A stretch of 21,166 bases of DNA from a virus. The notes beneath the pieces were generated by a model. The model was not told the origin of the DNA and did not search any database. It was given only the letters and a program-made list of their open reading frames with translations. The stretch is from IMG/VR virus record IMGVR_UViG_3300027770_000293, positions 1 through 21,166 of that record; one strand, 5' to 3'. Below are positions 1,185-10,805 of the stretch, piece after piece. A program made the translations under genes and the position numbers. Positions within the stretch are counted from its first letter, which is position 1. Each line of letters opens with the position of its first letter.

Positions 1185-1442
1185 ATGAGCATTAAATATC
1201 GAGGTATGGTGTTTGCGGGGTACAATACCCCTAAGAGGACTCCGGGCGCAACGAAGAAGTCTGCGGTGCTTGCCAAGGTTGGTGATACGGTTAGGCTGGT
1301 TCGTTTTGGAGACCCCTCCATGTCGATCAAGAAAGACCAGCCTGCACGCAAATCGTCGTACTGCGCTCGCAGCGGCGGGATCGTGGGTGGTGAAGGCAAG
1401 CTTTCAGCCAACTACTGGTCGCGCAGGGCTTGGGACTGCTAA
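1185..1442 (+). CDS. small conserved phage protein, RFGDP / IKKDQPARKS motif
   Basis: The 85-residue protein opens with MSIKYRGMVFAGYN. It then has a short KSAVLAKVGDTVRLVRFGDP segment, a basic core with IKKDQPARKSSYCARSGG, and ends with KLSANYWSRRAWDC. I recognise this layout (KPKRTP, VLAKVGD..RLVRFG, then PARR.S..AR and YWS...W) as a small family common in tailed phages, often near structural genes, with no established function to my knowledge. It is strongly basic, with cysteines at about residues 60 and 85. A TTGACG at 1106-1111 is a possible -35. It is the only gene in its unit and a strong hairpin terminator lies 47 bp after the stop. Confidence 0.75.
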   Translation: MSIKYRGMVFAGYNTPKRTPGATKKSAVLAKVGDTVRLVRFGDPSMSIKKDQPARKSSYCARSGGIVGGEGKLSANYWSRRAWDC

Positions 1443-1478: not shown

Positions 1479-1489
1479 CCTTAAATCAG

Positions 1490-1522
1490 AAAGCCCTACA
1501 CTTATCAGGTGTAGGGCTTTTT
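1490..1522 (+). terminator. strong rho-independent terminator
   Basis: A perfect 12-bp stem, AAAGCCCTACAC (1490-1501) with GTGTAGGGCTTT (1509-1520), has a 7-base loop and ends in five T (1518-1522). It ends the plus-strand gene at 1185 and sits 30 bp from the end of the minus-strand operon. On the minus strand the stem is followed by few T, so termination there would be weaker. Confidence 0.85.
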
Positions 1523-1551
1523 ATGTGCCAAGGATTGCCTAGGATGGATTG

Positions 1552-1746
1552 CTAGGGATAGTCGTGAATGGTTATGTCGGGAGATTTTTTGCTCTTACCA
1601 AAGGATGCGCAAGCTGACTTGGCTGCTTCGAGGGTATTATAGGGTCCACCAAACCAACCGTCCAACCACTCGGTTTTGTGCTTGCTCTCGACATAAAAGA
1701 GCGAGTTTCCCGACTCCCAAGTTTTCTGCACAATTCTAAGCGTCAT
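1552..1746 (-). CDS. small hypothetical protein, 64 residues
   Basis: Last gene of the minus-strand operon. It overlaps the previous gene by ATGA (1743-1746). The protein is soluble and Trp/Tyr-rich, with WLDGWFGGPYNTLEAAKSA in the middle and a C-terminus ending ITIHDYP. The gene before it ends with a similar AIIHKYP, and both have a beta-hairpin followed by an 'AAK/ACRE' helix, so the two may be diverged copies of one small fold, perhaps adapters or inhibitors. This is inference; no family is recognised. Confidence 0.55.
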   Translation of the reverse strand: MTLRIVQKTWESGNSLFYVESKHKTEWLDGWFGGPYNTLEAAKSACASFGKSKKSPDITIHDYP

Positions 1747-1982
1747 GTCTGGGTATCCAAGGGGTACTTGTGAATGATTGCCTTGGGTCTATCTTCCACC
1801 TTGATCTTGGAGGAGATTAATAGTTCGATCTCCCGGCAAGCTTGCTTGTGCGACATGAAGCTGATCGGCTCTCCCTCATCGCGATAAAGCGGCAACCAAC
1901 GAAACCAATTATACCGTTGCGGATAGAATAAGCGGTCGGATTCGACAACTCGGTATTTATTAACTTTTATTGTGATTTTCAT
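1743..1982 (-). CDS. small hypothetical protein, 79 residues
   Basis: I start this gene at the ATG at 1982 (MKITIKVNKY) because it makes the four-base ATGA overlap seen throughout the operon. Longer versions reaching upstream would overlap the HExxH gene extensively. The protein has a beta-like N-terminus, an aromatic stretch (FYPQRYNWFRWLPLYRDEG), a helix with SHKQACREIELLI, and ends in a KAIIHKYP segment like that of the next gene. Function unknown. Confidence 0.6.
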   Translation of the reverse strand: MKITIKVNKYRVVESDRLFYPQRYNWFRWLPLYRDEGEPISFMSHKQACREIELLISSKIKVEDRPKAIIHKYPLDTQT

Positions 1983-2362
1983 TTTATTTTTATTTTGTGT
2001 TTTTTCATAAGCCCATACGCTACCTCGGTTAAGTAACCTTGTAAATAAGCGAATGGTTCGTGATTGTCTTTCGAGAAAATAACCTCGCAACGTTCCGCCA
2101 TCCTCATCGTCGCATGAAAGATTTCGTGAGATATGGTGTTATGGCATAAGTCTTTATACTGGAAGAATATTGAGAAGCACGCGCCGCGATAGCAATGGAG
2201 CGCGCAATACTCTCCGTCTACATCCTGCTCCCCTAGGTACTTGATCCTAAATGGCTTGGTTACCGATTTGCCTATATCGCGACTAATAACAACCTCAAAG
2301 AAACTGGCGTATATTGGTACATATACCCTGACCGATTTCTCGTTATTCCCCATGACCTTCAT
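1979..2362 (-). CDS. small HExxH zinc-peptidase-like protein
   Basis: A 127-residue protein with HEIFH at residues 79-83, the zinc-binding and catalytic pattern of zincin peptidases, followed about 19 residues later by HEPFAYLQGYLTE, where the Glu (102) is a plausible third ligand. The N-terminal half is beta-rich with several Cys (53, 57, 62, 73). No signal peptide or membrane segment is seen, so it should be cytoplasmic. Small phage proteins with HExxH then 'EpfAYLvGYL' are, as I recall, a recurring uncharacterised family; activity is not proven. It overlaps both neighbours by ATGA, so it is translated with the signal-peptidase-like protein upstream. The two may be a processing pair, but that is inference. 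Confidence 0.65.
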   Translation of the reverse strand: MKVMGNNEKSVRVYVPIYASFFEVVISRDIGKSVTKPFRIKYLGEQDVDGEYCALHCYRGACFSIFFQYKDLCHNTISHEIFHATMRMAERCEVIFSKDNHEPFAYLQGYLTEVAYGLMKKHKIKIK

Positions 2363-2868
2363 TTCTTGTCGCGTGTCGTATAAATAGCCACAACAATCCC
2401 TGTAAATTCCTCGACTCCCATTGTTTGCCCTTTTCCTTCGTAGTGTTTATTGGATTGACCATCCATAATCCAAGAATCTCCAAGTTTTTCCGCAACCCAA
2501 TGAGCCACCGGCGGAGAGTCCTTTGGACGCCAACTCGCTTGATAGGTAGCAATCATCCCCACGGAAACATCGGCATAGGGAATTGACTTTACGACAATAT
2601 AGTCTCCACCCGTAATAAATGGCTCCATTGATCCTGTTTGGGCTACAAGGTAAACCTTTCCATCAATTTCCTTGGCTTGGAGACTTGACGCCATCAATGC
2701 TTGGGTTGGTGTATTACCCCAGTAAGTTGCAACCTCCTGACGTTTTGGCGTGCAGCCAAAAACCAAAAGAGCAATCGACGCAATCGCAAGGCCAGCCACG
2801 ATCAGCTTAATCGTGGTCTTGGCGCAACAAGTGCGGTTAACTTCTGCGGGTGTTTTCTCGTTTTTCAT
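2359..2868 (-). CDS. membrane-anchored S26-type signal-peptidase-like lipoprotein
   Basis: A 169-residue protein. A hydrophobic segment at about residues 19-38 ends in LLVFGC, a lipobox-like site with Cys39, so it is probably a lipoprotein or single-pass membrane protein with its body outside the cytoplasm. The body carries TGSMEP (Ser80), the serine nucleophile box of signal peptidase I/LexA folds, then a GDYIVVK strand, HWVAEKLGDSW (His123) and MDGQSN (Asp136). The His and Gly-Asp/Asn positions resemble the Ser-His-Asp type (SipW/Sec11) more than the Ser-Lys bacterial LepB type. No helicase or terminase context explains it. It overlaps both neighbours by ATGA. It could process envelope proteins or be an inactive decoy. 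An alternative is a phage S24-like peptidase, but the membrane anchor argues against this. Confidence 0.7.
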   Translation of the reverse strand: MKNEKTPAEVNRTCCAKTTIKLIVAGLAIASIALLVFGCTPKRQEVATYWGNTPTQALMASSLQAKEIDGKVYLVAQTGSMEPFITGGDYIVVKSIPYADVSVGMIATYQASWRPKDSPPVAHWVAEKLGDSWIMDGQSNKHYEGKGQTMGVEEFTGIVVAIYTTRDKK

Positions 2869-3524
2869 AGTGTGATATATACTGGGTCGTGAACCATTGC
2901 GTACTCTTCATTTAGAAGGCTTGCATTGACTGAAATAGTTCCATTTTTCTCAAGAATTCCATATCCGGTATGGATATGTCCAAAGCAATGGACTTTTGGT
3001 TTGATTCTGTCAATAGCCTTCGCTAGCTCCTCGCAACCAAGATTTTCTCCCCTGCGACCCTCGCATGTATCGAGCACGCCGAATGCAGGTCCGTGCGTTA
3101 CGAGAATATCGGTGTCGCGCTGAATGCGGTCCCAATGCTTCTTGATATCCGCGCCGCGCTTGCGATTAAATGCCCAATTTAGAAACTCTGGCTGAACAGG
3201 AGACCCGTAGACCCTAATGCCATCAAATCGCGCCCAATCGTCCTCTAGGTAGGTCACGGAAGGCGCGTACTTCTTGATCAACCGACGTGCAGCTTTGGGC
3301 GCGTGTTCAAATACCCAGTCGTGATTACCCGCCACAAAACACTTGTGCTTAGCTGGTTGCGACTCAAACCATACAAGGAACTCCTTTAATGATTCAGAAC
3401 CACCGTCATAGGTCACGTCCCCTGCATGGATAAGGATGTCGCATTCCTTGAGGGTTCCAATCTTGGCGTGCCGACCGTGGGTATCCGAAATGCAGGTAAT
3501 GCGTTGAGCTGTTTCTGTTGACAT
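2865..3524 (-). CDS. calcineurin-like metallophosphoesterase
   Basis: A 219-residue protein with the full set of two-metal phosphoesterase motifs: DTHGRH (residues 14-19), GDVT (35-38), GNHDW (66-70), THGP (about 143-146) and FGHIHTG (about 182-188). It spans only the core domain, similar in layout to small MPPED-type cyclic nucleotide or nucleic-acid phosphodiesterases. Substrate cannot be told from the sequence: cyclic nucleotides, nucleotides, RNA ends or phosphoproteins are all possible. It is in the minus operon just upstream of the signal-peptidase-like gene (ATGA overlap) and starts right after a perfect inverted repeat at 3525-3541. Cytoplasmic. Confidence 0.9.
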   Translation of the reverse strand: MSTETAQRITCISDTHGRHAKIGTLKECDILIHAGDVTYDGGSESLKEFLVWFESQPAKHKCFVAGNHDWVFEHAPKAARRLIKKYAPSVTYLEDDWARFDGIRVYGSPVQPEFLNWAFNRKRGADIKKHWDRIQRDTDILVTHGPAFGVLDTCEGRRGENLGCEELAKAIDRIKPKVHCFGHIHTGYGILEKNGTISVNASLLNEEYAMVHDPVYITL

Positions 3525-3682
3525 AAAATAAGACTTATTTTTAACGATAGTTTATTACGAATTGATCGAGAGATTCTAAGCTCTCGCTCCCAATCCGCAT
3601 CTGTGATTGTGGAAAACATTAAAACATAGACTCCTGAATCGGGGCAATCTCTACGGATTTCCGCATAGTTGGGTTGCTGCAC
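3413..3682 (-). CDS. possible overlapping small ORF
   Basis: A GTG-started 89-codon frame overlaps the end of the gene at 3619-3918 and the first 112 bases of the phosphoesterase gene. Its first 50 codons (PNYAEIRRDCPDSGVYVLMF, then ITDADWERELRISRS) look coding by purine-N-pyrimidine pattern and fill the 94-base gap; the last third looks like a shadow. It may be a real small gene or a remnant after a frameshift. Confidence 0.25.
   Translation of the reverse strand: MQQPNYAEIRRDCPDSGVYVLMFSTITDADWERELRISRSIRNKLSLKISLILCQQKQLNALPAFRIPTVGTPRLEPSRNATSLSMQGT
3525..3541. promoter_or_regulatory. perfect inverted repeat, possible operator
   Basis: AAAATAAG-A-CTTATTTT is an 8-bp perfect palindrome with a one-base centre, adjoining the ATG of the metallophosphoesterase. 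The same half-site (ATAAGT/ACTTAT) recurs in two inverted repeats upstream of the capsid gene. A shared regulator is possible but unproven. The 94-base gap to the previous gene also holds a CGAGAG/CTCTCG hairpin at 3567-3586. Confidence 0.4.
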
Positions 3683-3918
3683 CTCGGAAGATCAAACTTT
3701 GAATCAACAACATTCTCTCCCGTTTTGTGATAGGCGCAAGATCCGTAGATCATAGACAGCGACAAAATCCCATAGGACGACGGCTTGATGTTTCGCTCTA
3801 TCTGCATCGAGTTATGGAATTGGTTTAACGCTTGGACTGGACCCGATGCTTGAAGATCGTCGGTTTGGTTTAGGTCGGGTAACGAATCCAAGGAATACTT
3901 TATCCTGAACCTTTTCAT
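3619..3918 (-). CDS. hypothetical protein, 99 residues
   Basis: The start ATG at 3918 abuts the stop of the membrane-protein gene. The N-terminal 60 residues (MKRFRIKYSLDSLPDL, then ASGPVQALNQFHNSM) look like a small beta-alpha fold in which a strand is followed by a 'S.P.QALNQFH' helix, a layout common in small phage proteins, including the 79- and 64-residue genes later in this operon. The C-terminal 40 residues contain two Cys and no clear motif. Function unknown. Confidence 0.5.
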   Translation of the reverse strand: MKRFRIKYSLDSLPDLNQTDDLQASGPVQALNQFHNSMQIERNIKPSSYGILSLSMIYGSCAYHKTGENVVDSKFDLPRCSNPTMRKSVEIAPIQESMF

Positions 3919-4239
3919 TTAGATTACTTTCTGCGAAGTTTTATCGTTGCTTGTCGTTGCCTTGTCGGAATCGGCAGATGGTACTGATAAATTAACCAAT
4001 TTCGCCGCTTCAGCGAATCCAACAAGTAATTGCTGGGCCGCCATCTTGGCTGCGAATGGAAGCAAGAGCAAGATCCACGCAACCACTACCGGAACAACAG
4101 CAAGCCACGTAAGGAACAGATTATCGAACGACACAAGTTTAACCATGGCCGCAAGCAGCAGGACGTAGGCCGCTAGAGGAGCGGACGCAAATACTGCCGC
4201 CGAGATTACGCAAGCAATGACCTTGAGATTATTTTTCAT
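3919..4239 (-). CDS. two-helix membrane protein, 106 residues
   Basis: I start at ATG 4239 (MKNNLKVIACV), which overlaps the end of the previous gene by 11 bases; a TTG at 4275 is possible but less likely. Two strong hydrophobic segments are visible: about residues 5-32 (VIACVISAAVFASAPLAAYV and onward) and about 40-65 (LFLTWLAVVPVVVAWILLLL). They are followed by an amphipathic Ala-rich helix and a polar, Ser/Thr/Lys-rich tail. This is the size and topology of a phage holin or a superinfection-exclusion protein, but no endolysin is nearby, so neither can be claimed. Inner membrane. Confidence 0.6.
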   Translation of the reverse strand: MKNNLKVIACVISAAVFASAPLAAYVLLLAAMVKLVSFDNLFLTWLAVVPVVVAWILLLLPFAAKMAAQQLLVGFAEAAKLVNLSVPSADSDKATTSNDKTSQKVI

Positions 4240-4442
4240 CCGGGCAAGATGACAAGGTAAACTTAAGGTCGTCAACTATTTTTTTGGTAAAAATCTCTTG
4301 CATTTGAATCGAATCTGCGGTTTGATCTACCTCGATGAAAATCAAGCCGTCGAATAAAAAGCCTAAACCTCCGCTTTGGTGGCTGTTGCCAAAGCCAATG
4401 AAAAAAGTCGGGCGTATCGCCCAGCTCAGCAAACACAATCAT
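4229..4442 (-). CDS. first gene of minus operon, apparently frameshifted
   Basis: Reading from ATG 4442 gives MIVFAELGDTPDFF, then a change of one frame at the six-A run at 4401-4406 (T6 on the coding strand) gives a natural continuation, IGFGNSHQSGGLGFLFDGL and then IEVDQTADSIQMQEIFTKKI, ending with SSCPDEK at 4229. Without the shift, the first frame ends at 4272 after an Arg-rich stretch and the second frame has only a TTG start at 4438. The codon pattern favours the first frame before the run and the second after it. Either a homopolymer sequence error, a recent mutation or programmed slippage. The product would be about 70 residues, acidic at its C-terminal end; function unknown. Confidence 0.45.
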
Positions 4443-4488
4443 CGTAACGCAAAATCACGTCGCCAATTAGCGGCGCAAATTGATCAAG
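4443..4488. promoter_or_regulatory. divergent intergenic region
   Basis: These 46 bases separate the minus-strand operon from the plus-strand block, so promoters for both should lie here or within the first codons. I see a short CGCC/GGCG hairpin around 4461-4476 but no convincing -35/-10 pair. Confidence 0.35.
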
Positions 4489-4752
4489 ATGAATCCTAAA
4501 CGGGAAGAGGGAGAAAACTACACGCAGGAACAGGAGGATTGGGTGGCTGGAAGAATGCCATCCCAGTCCAAAAGCGCGTTGAAAGCGAAGCTCGTAAGGA
4601 GCTTCATCGCAAAGAACCCAGGAAGCGTAAGTTACGATATTCGTTCAAAGATGGGAGCGGAATACGTTGCATCGCTAGACTGGCTGTTCAAAAGAAACTT
4701 AATTCGTTCAGAGGGCGGGCTTAATCGACGATACTTCGTCGTACCATTATGA
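4489..4752 (+). CDS. small winged-helix-like DNA-binding protein
   Basis: The start ATG at 4489 is preferred over a TTG at 4480. The N-terminal 30 residues are polar. From about residue 35, LVRSFIAKNPGSVSYDIRSK, then MGAEYVASLDWLFKRNLI and an RRYFVV strand read as a winged helix-turn-helix (helix, short turn, recognition helix, wing). At 87 residues it would be a minimal regulator. It is first in the plus-strand block and next to the divergent promoter region, so regulation of one or both operons is a reasonable inference. It overlaps the next gene by ATGA. Confidence 0.55.
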   Translation: MNPKREEGENYTQEQEDWVAGRMPSQSKSALKAKLVRSFIAKNPGSVSYDIRSKMGAEYVASLDWLFKRNLIRSEGGLNRRYFVVPL

Positions 4753-5339: not shown

Positions 5340-5629
5340 AAGAGTTAAGCGAGCCTTTAAGTTGAGCCAAAATCAACGAACGTCCGATTAGCAAATCCTC
5401 GGCACCAGCAAATGGTTAAGGTTCAAGCTGTTTCTGTTCTTTGTTTATGCCTGCTGCGTAACCAATCGTGGGGGCGTTTTTCTTGGCCTATGATGCAAAC
5501 GAATAGCATACCTCGATTTCATGAGGCTATCCGGGTTAAAGTCCCGGTGGGTCATTCCTTAAAGGTTCCACCCCGGTAACAAGAACCCATTGGGTTCTCT
5601 CGCAAGAGTAGCCGGAGTGGTCATTTTTT
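5340..5629 (+). ncRNA. candidate structured RNA ending in a three-way junction and U tract
   Basis: No ORF is visible between the last gene and tRNA-Trp. The 3' part folds well: a 9-base outer stem CCACCCCGG (5568-5576) with CCGGAGTGG (5612-5620, one mismatch) encloses AGAACCC/GGGTTCT (5582-5598) and a CTC-GCAA-GAG tetraloop hairpin (5599-5608), then six T at 5624-5629. The first hairpin's last two bases abut the second, so the two compete slightly. Upstream lie CCTC/GAGG (5511-5526) and a T-arm-like CCGGG-TTAAAGT-CCCGG (5531-5547). This may be a phage ncRNA of about 285 nt or a relic of tRNA-like genes. The 5' end is a guess from the TTGACT box. I see no tmRNA tag. Confidence 0.4.
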
Positions 5630-5631
5630 CC

Positions 5632-5705
5632 AGGGACTACAGGTAAGGTATCGGGCAAATCTCCAAAATTTCGCCGAGGTGGTTCGATTCCATCAGTCTC
5701 TGCCA
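5632..5705 (+). tRNA. tRNA-Trp (anticodon CCA)
   Basis: Acceptor AGGGACT pairs with AGTCTCT (one G-T), followed by G and encoded CCA. The T-arm is GGTGG-TTCGATT-CCATC. The anticodon loop CTCCAAA has T33 and CCA at 5663-5665 on an AAAT/ATTT stem. The D-arm is short and irregular (GGT/ATC only), making the RNA 74 nt. Scoring by a covariance model may be low, but acceptor, T-arm and loop agree. Confidence 0.75.
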
Positions 5706-5933
5706 TCTACACCCACGAGCCTCTAGCGACAAGCAATGCTTAATTCGGTAACCTGAATTAACAGGTGATTCCATAGGACGCTATGGCGTAGGGTGCTTCA
5801 TTCTTGTTTATGGTTACGTCAATCCTAGTAATGGCTTACGTTGTTTTGTGGGTTGCAGTTCTGCCCTCAGAAAGCGGGGCTAAGTAAATAATAAGGGACT
5901 AGGCGTAAAAAATCTAGTCCCTTCCAATTTTAT
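5706..5933 (+). other. non-coding spacer with several hairpins
   Basis: There is no gene between tRNA-Trp and tRNA-Met. TTAATTC/GAATTAA (5740-5761) competes with ACCTG/CAGGT (5751-5766). CCATAG-GACG-CTATGG lies at 5771-5786, and GCCCT/GGGGC at 5863-5880. The density of stems suggests a processed or functional RNA, or decayed tRNA genes; no family is recognised. Confidence 0.4.
5893..5923 (+). terminator. perfect 10-bp hairpin before tRNA-Met
   Basis: AAGGGACTAG (5893-5902) pairs perfectly with CTAGTCCCTT (5914-5923) around an A-rich loop. The following CCAATTTTATT is only weakly U-rich, so this may be a terminator, a processing signal or a mini tRNA-like end (the stem is followed by CCA). 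Confidence 0.45.
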
Positions 5934-6009
5934 TGCAGAGTAGTTGAGCAGCTAAAACACATGACCCATAATCATGAGGCCGTGGGTGCGAATCCCGCCT
6001 CTGCATCCA
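5934..6009 (+). tRNA. tRNA-Met (anticodon CAT)
   Basis: Acceptor TGCAGAG/CTCTGCA (7 bp), discriminator T and encoded CCA. D-stem GTT/AAC. Anticodon stem CATGA/TCATG with loop CCCATAA gives CAT. T-arm GTGGG-TGCGAAT-CCCGC. Position 33 is C instead of the near-universal T, and the T-loop starts TG. The CAT anticodon could also be a lysidine-modified tRNA-Ile. Elongator versus initiator is not decided. Confidence 0.85.
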
Positions 6010-6014
6010 ATTTT

Positions 6015-6093
6015 AGTCCTTTAGTTTAATGTAGGTAAAAACGTGCTCTTTATAAGGGCTTAACGATGGAGCCTCCGCCATCAGGGACTACCA
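6015..6093 (+). tRNA. tRNA-Ile (anticodon TAT), unusual T-loop
   Basis: Acceptor AGTCCTT pairs with AGGGACT (one G-T), then A and encoded CCA. D-stem GTTT/AAAC encloses a normal loop with GG. The anticodon arm TGCTC-TTTATAA-GGGCT carries TAT (6051-6053) with T33. The T-stem GATGG/CCATC is good but its loop is AGCCTCCG, 8 nt without the usual TTC. It would read the rare codon ATA. Confidence 0.65.
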
Positions 6094-6098
6094 TAAAC

Positions 6099-6130
6099 CG
6101 GGGATCGCGAGTTAAAATCATCGCCCGGAC
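6099..6130 (+). other. hairpin between tRNA-Ile and tRNA-Arg
   Basis: CCGG (6099-6102) and GCGA (about 6107-6110) pair with TCGC and CCGG near 6121-6128, leaving a small bulge; the stem is followed by ACCACCA. It resembles half a tRNA (3' stem plus CCA) without a partner and may be a decayed tRNA or a processing element. Confidence 0.3.
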
Positions 6131-6136
6131 CACCAC

Positions 6137-6215
6137 TTTCCCTTAGCATAAACGGACAATGCCCTTGTTTCCTAAACAAGCTGCTATCGGGGTTCGACTC
6201 CCCGGGGGAGAACCA
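6137..6215 (+). tRNA. tRNA-Arg (anticodon CCT)
   Basis: Acceptor TTTCCCT pairs with GGGGAGA (two G-T), then A and encoded CCA. D-stem GCAT/ATGC has a GG-containing loop. Anticodon arm CTTGT-TTCCTAA-ACAAG gives CCT at 6171-6173. T-arm CGGGG-TTCGACT-CCCCG is canonical. It reads AGG. Confidence 0.9.
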
Positions 6216-7201: not shown

Positions 7202-8032
7202 ATGGCACACAAAACACGGAAGCCGATCAAACGAGTCGTAATCTGCTCCGATCTACATATCGGGAGTACTAAGGGACTGCTTGAACCGGGGTTCACGACC
7301 TTGGAGGGTAATAAAGTCTCGCTAAATGCCATGCAAGAGTGGCTTTGGCTTTGTTGGAAGAAAGCGAATAGATTTATCGACGAGCAGGTGGGCGATGAGC
7401 CCTTCGCGTTTGTCGTCAATGGAGACATCATCGAAGGCATTCATCATGGAACCAAAGAAATCTGGAGCCCGGAAATTGCGGACCAAAGGCGTGCCGCCGT
7501 TGAAATCCTCAAGCCTCTTGTTGCTAAAGCCACTGCGTCGTTCATCGTCCGAGGCACGGAATGCCATGTTCAAAACACGGAAAGCGGCATCGGAGAGCAA
7601 CTTGGATGCGTTAAAGACGAGGAAACGGGACTACATGCATTTGATCGACTTGTGCTAGAGCTAAATAGTGTTCGCCATGTATTTCGCCATCATATCGGAA
7701 CATCAGTCCGTAGAGGGCTTGCCGGAACTCAACTGTCTGCCAATCTTGCCGAAGAACAAGTGGAAGCCGCAAATAACGGCGAGAAAATCCCGCGAGTCGT
7801 CGTCTGTAGCCATCGCCACAAATTCGGTCTTTATCAGGATACCAACGGACTACTCGTCGTTACCCCTCCATTTCAGGGACTGACAAGATTCGGTCATAAG
7901 GTAGTTAGTCAAGCACGCACAAACCCAGGAATTGTCATTTTGGATTATTCCGGAAAACAGCTCGGAGAGCTGCCAACCGTGATCGAGAAAACATTCAAAA
8001 CACCGGAGGCTAAAACAATTGAACTTAGTTAA
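7202..8032 (+). CDS. second metallophosphoesterase, phage type
   Basis: A 276-residue protein with SDLH (Asp17, His19), NGD (Asp75) and a late SHRHKFG (about 204-210), the metal-ligand motifs of the calcineurin-like fold. The usual GNHD box is replaced by RGTECH (117-122): the invariant Asn is Thr-Glu and the catalytic His may be His122, so the active site differs from the first phosphoesterase. Long inserts with HHGTKE and TSVRRGLAG suggest nucleic-acid binding. Known phage phosphoesterases of this size lie near terminase and replication genes. An exonuclease or DNA-end role is possible but not shown. The stop overlaps the next gene by 14 bases. Confidence 0.8.
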   Translation: MAHKTRKPIKRVVICSDLHIGSTKGLLEPGFTTLEGNKVSLNAMQEWLWLCWKKANRFIDEQVGDEPFAFVVNGDIIEGIHHGTKEIWSPEIADQRRAAVEILKPLVAKATASFIVRGTECHVQNTESGIGEQLGCVKDEETGLHAFDRLVLELNSVRHVFRHHIGTSVRRGLAGTQLSANLAEEQVEAANNGEKIPRVVVCSHRHKFGLYQDTNGLLVVTPPFQGLTRFGHKVVSQARTNPGIVILDYSGKQLGELPTVIEKTFKTPEAKTIELS

Positions 8033-8711: not shown

Positions 8712-8904
8712 ATCCTATCGGGATGGAGAGACGGTCATGAGCCCCAAAGAGCTTAATGACTTAGCTATGGCCGTAAAGAACATGACATCTAGCTCAAAAG
8801 AGATCTACGATACCGCGGAGCCAATCCAAACCTCAAAGATAGTTGTTAATGCGGATATAGACGTTGAGGACATTAGCTTTGACTCAATTAAGAAAACTGA
8901 ATGA
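8551..8904 (+). CDS. possible small terminase subunit
   Basis: A 117-residue protein directly upstream of the large terminase gene with a four-base overlap, the usual place of the small subunit. Segments: a beta-like N-terminus (ATIVEMDGASVTVPF), a helix (ANKIVVAQLRQALQFAIKSY), MSPKELNDLAMAVKNMTSSS and an acidic C-terminal tail (DIDVEDISFDSIKK) of a kind that could contact the large subunit. It has no evident HTH, which the gene at 8019 does have. The identity rests on position and general layout only. ATG at 8581 is an alternative start. Confidence 0.5.
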   Translation: MAKQSLTERLMLPKATIVEMDGASVTVPFDKNENATANKIVVAQLRQALQFAIKSYRDGETVMSPKELNDLAMAVKNMTSSSKEIYDTAEPIQTSKIVVNADIDVEDISFDSIKKTE

Positions 8905-10805
8905 CCATAGATGAGTTAAAGGTTATTCATGCGCTCCTTATTTCGGATCGCTGGATTGAAGCAGCCGAGCTTGCGCTAAAAAGCATCGGAAACAACAGGT
9001 CCGTTCCTACGAAATCGGAGGCCGTTGGGGTTATGAGGAAACTTTTTCAAGCAACCCTAGACGCAGAAGATTATCTTTCCGCCGCCACATTGCAGTGGGG
9101 ACCAGACTTATTTAACACCGAGCCCGAGTCGGTTAAGCGTGTATTTATTGCGTTGAGGGAGGGATCTACAATCCTGCTCGTCGGAGCAAGTTCGATGTCA
9201 AAAACTTATTCAGCAGGGGCGTTCATGCTATTAGATTACCTGCGTGACCCACTTTACACTACCGTAAAACTTGCCGCAATTAACGAGGATCATCTCAGGA
9301 AGAACCTTTTTGCGCATGTTGCAACTCTTTACCGGAACTGCATTATCCCGTCAAAATATGATATTCAAGTACGCGACTCTGATTTATGGATGGGGGTTAA
9401 GGATGCCGGTTATGAGTTTGGTATATCCGGAATTGCGTTCAAGCAATCACAAGAGACATCCGGACAATTCAAGGGATACAAGGCCAAGCCAGTACGCACA
9501 AGTCGTCATCCTAAATTTGGGGTAATGTCCCGCCTTCGCGTTCTGGGAGATGAGGGTCAAAACTGGCCCGGCGGTCCATTTAAGGACTTTAATTCTCTAG
9601 TTGCATCAAAGACCGGATCTGAGCTAATTAAGATAGTCGTAGCCTTTAATCCTGAATCCACATCTCAGCTGGTTGTTCAGATGGCAGAGCCTGAACAGGG
9701 TTGGCTTGCGGATGAGATGGATACATTATACGATTGGACGAGCAAAGCGGATTGGCGCGTGTGCCGATTGGACGCAGCAAAATCGGAAAATGTAATCCAA
9801 AAAAAGAAAGTTTACGAGGGACTACAAACCTACGAGGGGTTCATGTCTTACCTGAAGGCGGGTGGAGACTCATCGGCCAATTACAGTTGTTTCGCGAGAG
9901 GGTGGCCACCCATGAAGGGGTCCATAAATACCCTTATTCCACCCGCTTGGCCCAACGAGGCTCGCGGAGAATGCACGTTCATCGACAACCCGATAGTTCT
10001 GGCTTCAGTTGACTTAGCTTTCATGGGCAAGGACTCGGCCCAGATGGCAGTTGCTAGATGGGGAAGGGCGTCGGGATGGCGCGACCACACCGGGAAATTT
10101 ACGGTATTTAAGGATCGCCTTAACGTCGCCCAAGATAAGCCTAGGTACGTATTGCAGATAGATCAAATTCTGCCAATGAACAAACACGACGACACAACCA
10201 AGATGTCGGAGGAAATTATGGCAAGAGCTAAGATGTTGAGTATCAAGCCGGAAAATCTAATTATCGACCGTACATCTATCGGACTAGGCGTACATTCCCA
10301 TTTGAATAAGGTGTGGGGTGCGAGCCGAGGTGTTTCTTGGAATGAAAAAGCGACATCAAAGAGGATTGTTAGTGAAGACCTTGACGGTGCAGATGCCCAA
10401 TGCGATGGAGTGATGTCTGAGATGTGGTGGACATTTAGGCGATGGCTGGACCCACGTTGCTGCGCTATCCTAATAAACCCGATTATCCCAACCAGTCCCA
10501 TCAACACCGAGCTTACCTCCCGGCGATACGGAACATCTAAGGGCGGAAAAATCAAGGTTGAAGCCAAGGATCAATACAAGGCAAGGAACGGCGGAGCTTC
10601 TCCAGACGCGGCGGATGCGTGCATTATGCTTACGCTACTCGTTAGACAGACTGGAGATGCGCTACCGGGGCTGGTGGACCAAAGCCCTGAAACTACTTCG
10701 CGGAACGGAGCAATCAGATTCGAGCAGCCGTTCAAGAGTCCGATTGCCTTCGAGAAAGATGACTCCATCGGAGAGGAACCAGACGGAAAGGAGGGCTTGG
10801 AGTGA
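8901..10805 (+). CDS. terL: terminase large subunit
   Basis: A 634-residue DNA-packaging motor. The ATPase half has a Walker A GASSMSKT (residues 95-102) with Thr102, a Walker B with hydrophobic residues then GDEGQN (about 213-218), and a coupling motif near IVVAFNPES (about 249-257). The nuclease half has the RNaseH-fold acids: SVDLAFMGKDS (about 372-382), LIIDRTSIG (about 455-463) and PDAADACIML (near 572-581). Size is normal to slightly long. The start ATGACC overlaps the preceding gene. It cuts and threads genomes into proheads at the portal encoded downstream. Confidence 0.95.
   Translation: MTIDELKVIHALLISDRWIEAAELALKSIGNNRSVPTKSEAVGVMRKLFQATLDAEDYLSAATLQWGPDLFNTEPESVKRVFIALREGSTILLVGASSMSKTYSAGAFMLLDYLRDPLYTTVKLAAINEDHLRKNLFAHVATLYRNCIIPSKYDIQVRDSDLWMGVKDAGYEFGISGIAFKQSQETSGQFKGYKAKPVRTSRHPKFGVMSRLRVLGDEGQNWPGGPFKDFNSLVASKTGSELIKIVVAFNPESTSQLVVQMAEPEQGWLADEMDTLYDWTSKADWRVCRLDAAKSENVIQKKKVYEGLQTYEGFMSYLKAGGDSSANYSCFARGWPPMKGSINTLIPPAWPNEARGECTFIDNPIVLASVDLAFMGKDSAQMAVARWGRASGWRDHTGKFTVFKDRLNVAQDKPRYVLQIDQILPMNKHDDTTKMSEEIMARAKMLSIKPENLIIDRTSIGLGVHSHLNKVWGASRGVSWNEKATSKRIVSEDLDGADAQCDGVMSEMWWTFRRWLDPRCCAILINPIIPTSPINTELTSRRYGTSKGGKIKVEAKDQYKARNGGASPDAADACIMLTLLVRQTGDALPGLVDQSPETTSRNGAIRFEQPFKSPIAFEKDDSIGEEPDGKEGLE

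Follow-up and report, generated by a model that had tools for sequence, protein, structure and literature searches.

A probable variable accessory operon in an uncultured freshwater phage, encoding a signal-peptidase-like protein, an MPPED-type phosphoesterase and an HExxH protein

The fly metallophosphodiesterase dMpped hydrolyses phosphodiesters including 2',3'-cAMP, 3',5'-cAMP and cGMP, while its phosphomonoesterase activity is undetectable (PMC10547211), and the mycobacteriophage metallophosphoesterase Gp48 has been described as an early counter-defence factor which is dispensable in one host (PMC12287305). We found a member of the MPPED family in a minus-strand phage operon, where it is accompanied by a peptidase resembling the S26B signal peptidases, a small protein with an HExxH motif and a two-helix membrane protein. 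The operon lies in a 21,166-base virus record (IMGVR_UViG_3300027770_000293), a fragment of an uncultured phage of which one strand was read and which is referred to as a whole as the window. Its genes are arranged for translational coupling, a strong terminator-like hairpin stands at its end and the same spot in related phages is occupied by largely different genes. We think it probable that we have here the first leftward operon of a lineage of freshwater tailed phages not yet described, and that it is a variable accessory (cargo) locus whose products act in separate pathways and not an exclusion module.

The operon consists of seven good open reading frames (ORFs) on the minus strand, running from position 4239 down to 1552. 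These encode a 106-residue protein with two membrane helices, as read directly from the ORF and its hydrophobicity (3919..4239, the first gene); F99, a small conserved protein of an FRxKY...NP family (3619..3918); a predicted MPPED/239FB-type class III metallophosphodiesterase of 219 residues (2865..3524); a putative S26B (SEC11/SipW-like) peptidase of 169 residues (2359..2868); an HExxH protein of 127 residues belonging to phrog_1365 (1979..2362); B79, a small protein with IIHKYP near its C-terminus and a match to phrog_12822 (8e-5; 1743..1982); and A64, a small protein with a C-terminal ITIHDYP (1552..1746, the last gene). All four junctions from A64 through to the phosphoesterase are 4-nt ATGA overlaps, giving a chain of five coupled ORFs, compared to a maximum of two in 500 Markov shuffles of the region. 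The genes for F99 and the two-helix membrane protein abut. A further short ORF, W (MFSTITDADW..., 3413..3619, minus strand), starts at 3619 in a TAATG overlap with the stop codon of F99 and enters the phosphoesterase gene out of frame; its homologues in two relatives are weak (phmmer against the relatives' ORFs: E = 0.002 in G001 and 0.03 in G002). Truncation of W by insertion of the phosphoesterase gene was considered and dropped, as W is short in G001 as well.

At its downstream end the operon faces a plus-strand gene for a small basic protein (1185..1442, phrog_7595, 2e-17). Between the two, at about 1489..1523, lies a strong hairpin resembling a bidirectional intrinsic terminator, flanked by a T-run towards the plus-strand gene's reading direction and by a T-rich stretch at its opposite side; the RNA fold of 1470-1560 has an energy of -31.5 kcal/mol (z = -3.6), and none of 200 shuffles was as stable. 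At the upstream end, the stretch at 4240..4334 separates the operon from a divergent, conserved small plus-strand gene (MKIK...RLGQLNKxNR, 4335..4499) which has a homologue in G002 (phmmer, E = 4e-17) and weaker but recognisable counterparts in G001, G010 and G011. From this gene layout, both leftward and rightward transcription presumably start within the divergent stretch. An earlier note on this DNA had counted at least eight minus-strand genes, mostly linked by ATGA overlaps. Its uppermost ORF (4272-4442, or 4229-4438 in another frame) was rejected because it is antisense to the conserved gene at 4335-4499; the minus-strand ORFs reaching up to 4442 are thus probably spurious, and the operon most likely starts at 4239. 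The same note had these genes running opposite to everything else, which is true within the 21-kb fragment but not in the relatives G001 and G010, where leftward genes continue for at least 10 kb.

We compared the locus with the equivalent position in related contigs, which were anchored by terminase-like, primase-helicase and capsid proteins (mostly 58-92% identity) and were read wherever they covered it. F99 was the most constant member, with phmmer E values of 8e-10 to 9e-9 against G002, G011 and G001. In G002 (L025) the locus contains F99, the HExxH protein, W, a YspA-type SLOG protein and a secreted DPBB lytic transglycosylase, and no phosphoesterase or S26 gene was found on this fragment. 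In G001 (L026), F99 and W are accompanied by MazG and a DNA methyltransferase, followed by a long leftward arm with amidoligase genes. G011 (L044) has a dATP/dGTP diphosphohydrolase, a NinI-like phosphoesterase, the HExxH protein, a small membrane protein, an FkbM methyltransferase, F99, YspA and DUF5662, while the fragments of G010 (L037 and L043) have an S26 gene and, further along, a secreted destabilase-type lysozyme, with neither an HExxH gene nor a phosphoesterase of the window's family. Among these fragment contigs the phosphoesterase, S26 and HExxH genes are therefore not kept together as a unit, with relatives holding subsets of them or none. The flanks remain recognisable while the genes between them are exchanged, which indicates a mosaic cargo locus rather than a conserved unit. 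The set as a whole was found on no other contig, and the identities which the earlier note gave for the peptidase, the HExxH protein, the cyclic-nucleotide-type phosphoesterase and the two-helix protein were borne out. The single purpose which it proposed for them, exclusion or modification of the envelope, was not: relatives carry the genes separately, each family keeps different neighbours outside the lineage, and the outcome named beforehand as refuting in a co-occurrence check, homologues scattered with no shared neighbourhood, is largely what we saw.

The phosphoesterase matches PF00149 (6e-16) and phrog_1649 (2e-18), and by sequence it is assigned to the MPPED/239FB family of class III phosphodiesterases. 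MPPED2 sequences were the only ones matched in the PDB (3rl4: phmmer E = 4.2e-37, residues 8-216), and the metal-site motifs SDTH, GD, GNHD, THGP and GHIH are complete. It also matches PDC-S10 over residues 5-218 (E = 6.4e-84), a PADLOC model with the status of a candidate defence gene only; a literature search found no paper naming PDC-S10. Relatives of the protein are also present in Bacteroidota chromosomes. Among other phages with an MPPED-type gene, Tunturi_5 encodes a dNMP kinase and a nucleoside deoxyribosyltransferase nearby, ctfjg026 has the gene for thymidylate synthase ThyX adjoining it, and in immuto annotations of NrdF and ThyA lie no more than about 4 kb away. The window encodes a second protein resembling the calcineurin fold (7202-8032, plus strand), with NGD, GTECH and HRH motifs and a weak match to Pfam Metallophos. 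Its counterparts in L020, L021 and L031 are 50-77% identical to it, and it is therefore probably a core gene of the sublineage and not cargo.

The S26 protein has one N-terminal membrane helix, a serine in GSMEP and a histidine in AHW. When the five phage copies were aligned, the serine and histidine were kept in all of them, and the usual GD in every copy except that of the window, which has GQ; because of this replacement, full activity of the window protein is uncertain. Its match to TIGR02228 (2.6e-7, 30.7 bits) is below the curated cut-off of 51.85 bits, as are those of its phage relatives (41-43 bits) with the sole exception of the G004 copy (57.3 bits). A profile built from four phage copies matches human SEC11A and SEC11C (5e-4), and SEC11A was also the top Foldseek match of the structural model (E = 0.01, probability 0.98), although this model is poor (mean pLDDT 53). 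No Pfam or PHROG model reached significance for the phage family, the window protein had no match among GenBank phages and the G004 copy had two weak matches to gut phages; a literature search found no paper on phage S26 peptidases. It should be noted that single-sequence scans of viral contigs for S26 and for the HExxH protein returned nothing and that the matches came from profile queries. In L047 and L048 the S26 relatives lie in a structural block together with a phrog_7595 gene, and the gene immediately downstream of them encodes a two-helix holin-like protein, for which family searches gave no informative match. A phrog_7595 gene lies no further than about 1.5 kb from S26 in the window, G010, L047 and L048, and the window's copy (1185-1442) is 63% identical to that of G010, 49% to that of L047 and 58% to that of L048. 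On the 58-kb virus contig of G004 (L002 and L029), about 9 kb separate the gene for an MPPED-type phosphoesterase from that for an S26 protein with a lipoprotein-type signal. The phage S26 family is the least expected and newest element of the operon. We offer only tentatively the suggestion that several phage lineages might encode a signal peptidase of the SEC11/SipW type, outside Pfam and PHROGs, with which exported proteins of the phage or of the host envelope are re-processed in the course of infection.

The HExxH protein belongs to phrog_1365 (E = 1.1e-11), and H79, E80, H83 and E102 are invariant across six sequences. Neither it nor the phosphoesterase has an export signal. Its AlphaFold2 model is confident (pLDDT 89), and fold comparison, with SprT/SPRTN, ImmA and DA1 as the known zinc-peptidase folds considered, gave no clear solved relative: the best Z was 4.2, to unrelated folds, and SPRTN, a DNA-protein crosslink protease, was matched with a Z of 3.2 over 72-81 residues. 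The absence of other zincins from this list carries no weight. In Klebsiella Drulisvirus and in Salmonella and Serratia Guernseyvirinae the phrog_1365 gene lies beside genes for a helicase, DNA polymerase A or VRR-NUC, and these replication-gene neighbours argue for a cytosolic, replication-linked role and against one in the envelope.

If the operon is indeed an accessory locus, it would be transcribed early from the divergent region at 4240-4334, as its position suggests, and each product would work in a pathway of its own. The phosphoesterase would be expected to cleave the phosphodiester bonds of nucleotides, beside the nucleotide-pool enzymes which recur in the locus, and perhaps to remove a cyclic-nucleotide signal as well. 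For the HExxH protein we would expect a metallopeptidase role in the cytosol, in the service of phage replication. The S26 protein, anchored in the membrane with its catalytic domain outside the inner membrane, would act as a peptidase on an exported or membrane protein. Several observations weigh against this account. All of the contigs are fragments of uncultured phages, so that the absence of a gene from a relative is weak evidence. The early timing depends on position, and a promoter scan gave 4 sites where 5.3 were expected, which is no better than chance. In G011, the NinI-like phosphoesterase is ATGA-coupled to the phrog_1365 HExxH gene. It is non-orthologous to the window's enzyme, with no BLASTP similarity beyond short motifs, and the recurrence of the two kinds of gene in G011, here side by side, means that their products may cooperate. 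Lastly, nucleotide enzymes accompany the phosphoesterase in several relatives but not all, other MPPED-type phage relatives being without such neighbours. This picture is mixed and, as with all neighbour comparisons outside the lineage, was read by eye.

An alternative which we consider unlikely, but the strongest of those weighed here, is a counter-defence operon, in which the phosphoesterase destroys the cyclic-nucleotide or dinucleotide alarm of CBASS, Pycsar, Thoeris or type III CRISPR systems, while defence proteins are removed by the two peptidases. Cleavage of such a signal is possible and would fit the family, given the activity of dMpped on cyclic nucleotides (PMC10547211), and it is the one element of the earlier note's proposal that still stands; Gp48 offers a phage precedent, and a variable-cargo position is typical of counter-defence genes. 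However, Gp48 reportedly works through host DNA damage and not through removal of a signal (PMC12287305), the phosphoesterase has nucleotide-synthesis genes as neighbours in several other phages and relatives in Bacteroidota chromosomes, and the listing of its family by PADLOC as a candidate host defence gene points the opposite way.

The two readings centred on the envelope are less probable still. In an envelope or lysis module, which appears improbable, the S26 peptidase would process an exported protein of the phage or of the host envelope, such as a phage lysozyme, and the two-helix protein would be a holin. The position of the S26 relatives in L047 and L048, directly upstream of a holin-like protein, is consistent with this, as are the secreted lysozyme of G010 and the secreted lytic transglycosylase of G002, both encoded in the same leftward direction, and the case of Roseobacter phage CRP-207, where phrog_7595, a neighbour of S26, is found close to a gene for lysozyme. 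On the other hand, the window's operon contains no lytic enzyme, and the HExxH protein and phosphoesterase are ill-suited to lysis. The two-helix protein (3919-4239) could be holin-like, but it gave nothing above noise in Pfam, PHROG, NCBIfam or PADLOC and has no homologue near S26 elsewhere. A superinfection-exclusion or receptor-masking module working as one unit, as the earlier note proposed, would account for a membrane-anchored peptidase and a small membrane protein in a single operon. We regard it as very improbable given that relatives do not keep the genes together, that the HExxH protein and the phosphoesterase lack export signals and that other phages carry phrog_1365 in their replication region.

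For F99 there was no family match, and the remaining small ORFs of the operon matched no informative family. Several small operon proteins have similar C-terminal ends such as IIHKYP, ITIHDYP, VVHKYP or VERLYP (window 1552-1982, L043:208-489 and L025:12065-12250). Very few of the 24 window genes inspected have a Shine-Dalgarno-like motif, and most starts follow A/T-rich sequence, a common situation in Bacteroidota, from which the closest cellular relatives of the phosphoesterase also come. The leftward arms of G010 (L043:1426-7422) and G001 (L026:11767-19363) contain amidoligase and glutamine-amidotransferase-like genes resembling the amidoligase modules of other phages. Runs resembling tRNA genes, with the spurious ORFs typical of tRNA clusters, adjoin the locus in several relatives (L025:4700-7345, L044:9155-11705) and in the window (5411-6215), where ARAGORN found two tRNAs (Met and Arg) and tRNA-like sequence is present around 5500-5705. 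The terminase-like gene is intact in the window (8901-10805) and split by roughly 1 kb of extra sequence in L020, L036, L037, L038 and L042, possibly an intron or homing-endonuclease insertion.

For this lineage of uncultured freshwater phages, the variable accessory locus is thus mapped in concrete terms, and genomes recovered in future can be divided on this basis into conserved flanks and cargo. Two further leads are open to ordinary biochemistry: phage proteins resembling signal peptidases, which form a small family without a name, and the repeated association of a phosphoesterase with an HExxH protein of phrog_1365.

Compared to known systems, the window's cargo matches no known anti-defence protein in the searches run, but the locus is like the variable accessory and anti-defence loci of tailed phages in its conserved flanks, interchangeable small genes and translational coupling. 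With the S26B signal peptidases (SEC11A/C, SipW, TIGR02228) the peptidase shares the GSMxP serine, the H(R/W) histidine, a single N-terminal membrane helix and a predicted beta-rich core; it differs in its sub-cut-off score, in having GQ for GD and in being phage-encoded, with the phage members falling outside Pfam and PHROG families. Gp48 of A10ZJ24 is likewise a phage-encoded phosphodiesterase of the calcineurin fold which is not always essential, a likeness to the window protein at the level of description, and the reported host DNA damage is a feature of Gp48 (PMC12287305). MPPED2 (3rl4) is of the same family as the window's phosphoesterase, which has all of its metal-site motifs including the histidine of GHIH, although MPPED2 has GNHE where the window protein has GNHD, and the latter is phage-encoded with a shorter N-terminus. 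The phrog_1365 proteins of Drulisvirus and Guernseyvirinae are of the same family as the HExxH protein, which has their invariant HExxH and downstream glutamate, but their genes lie in the replication module whereas that of the window lies in a leftward accessory operon.

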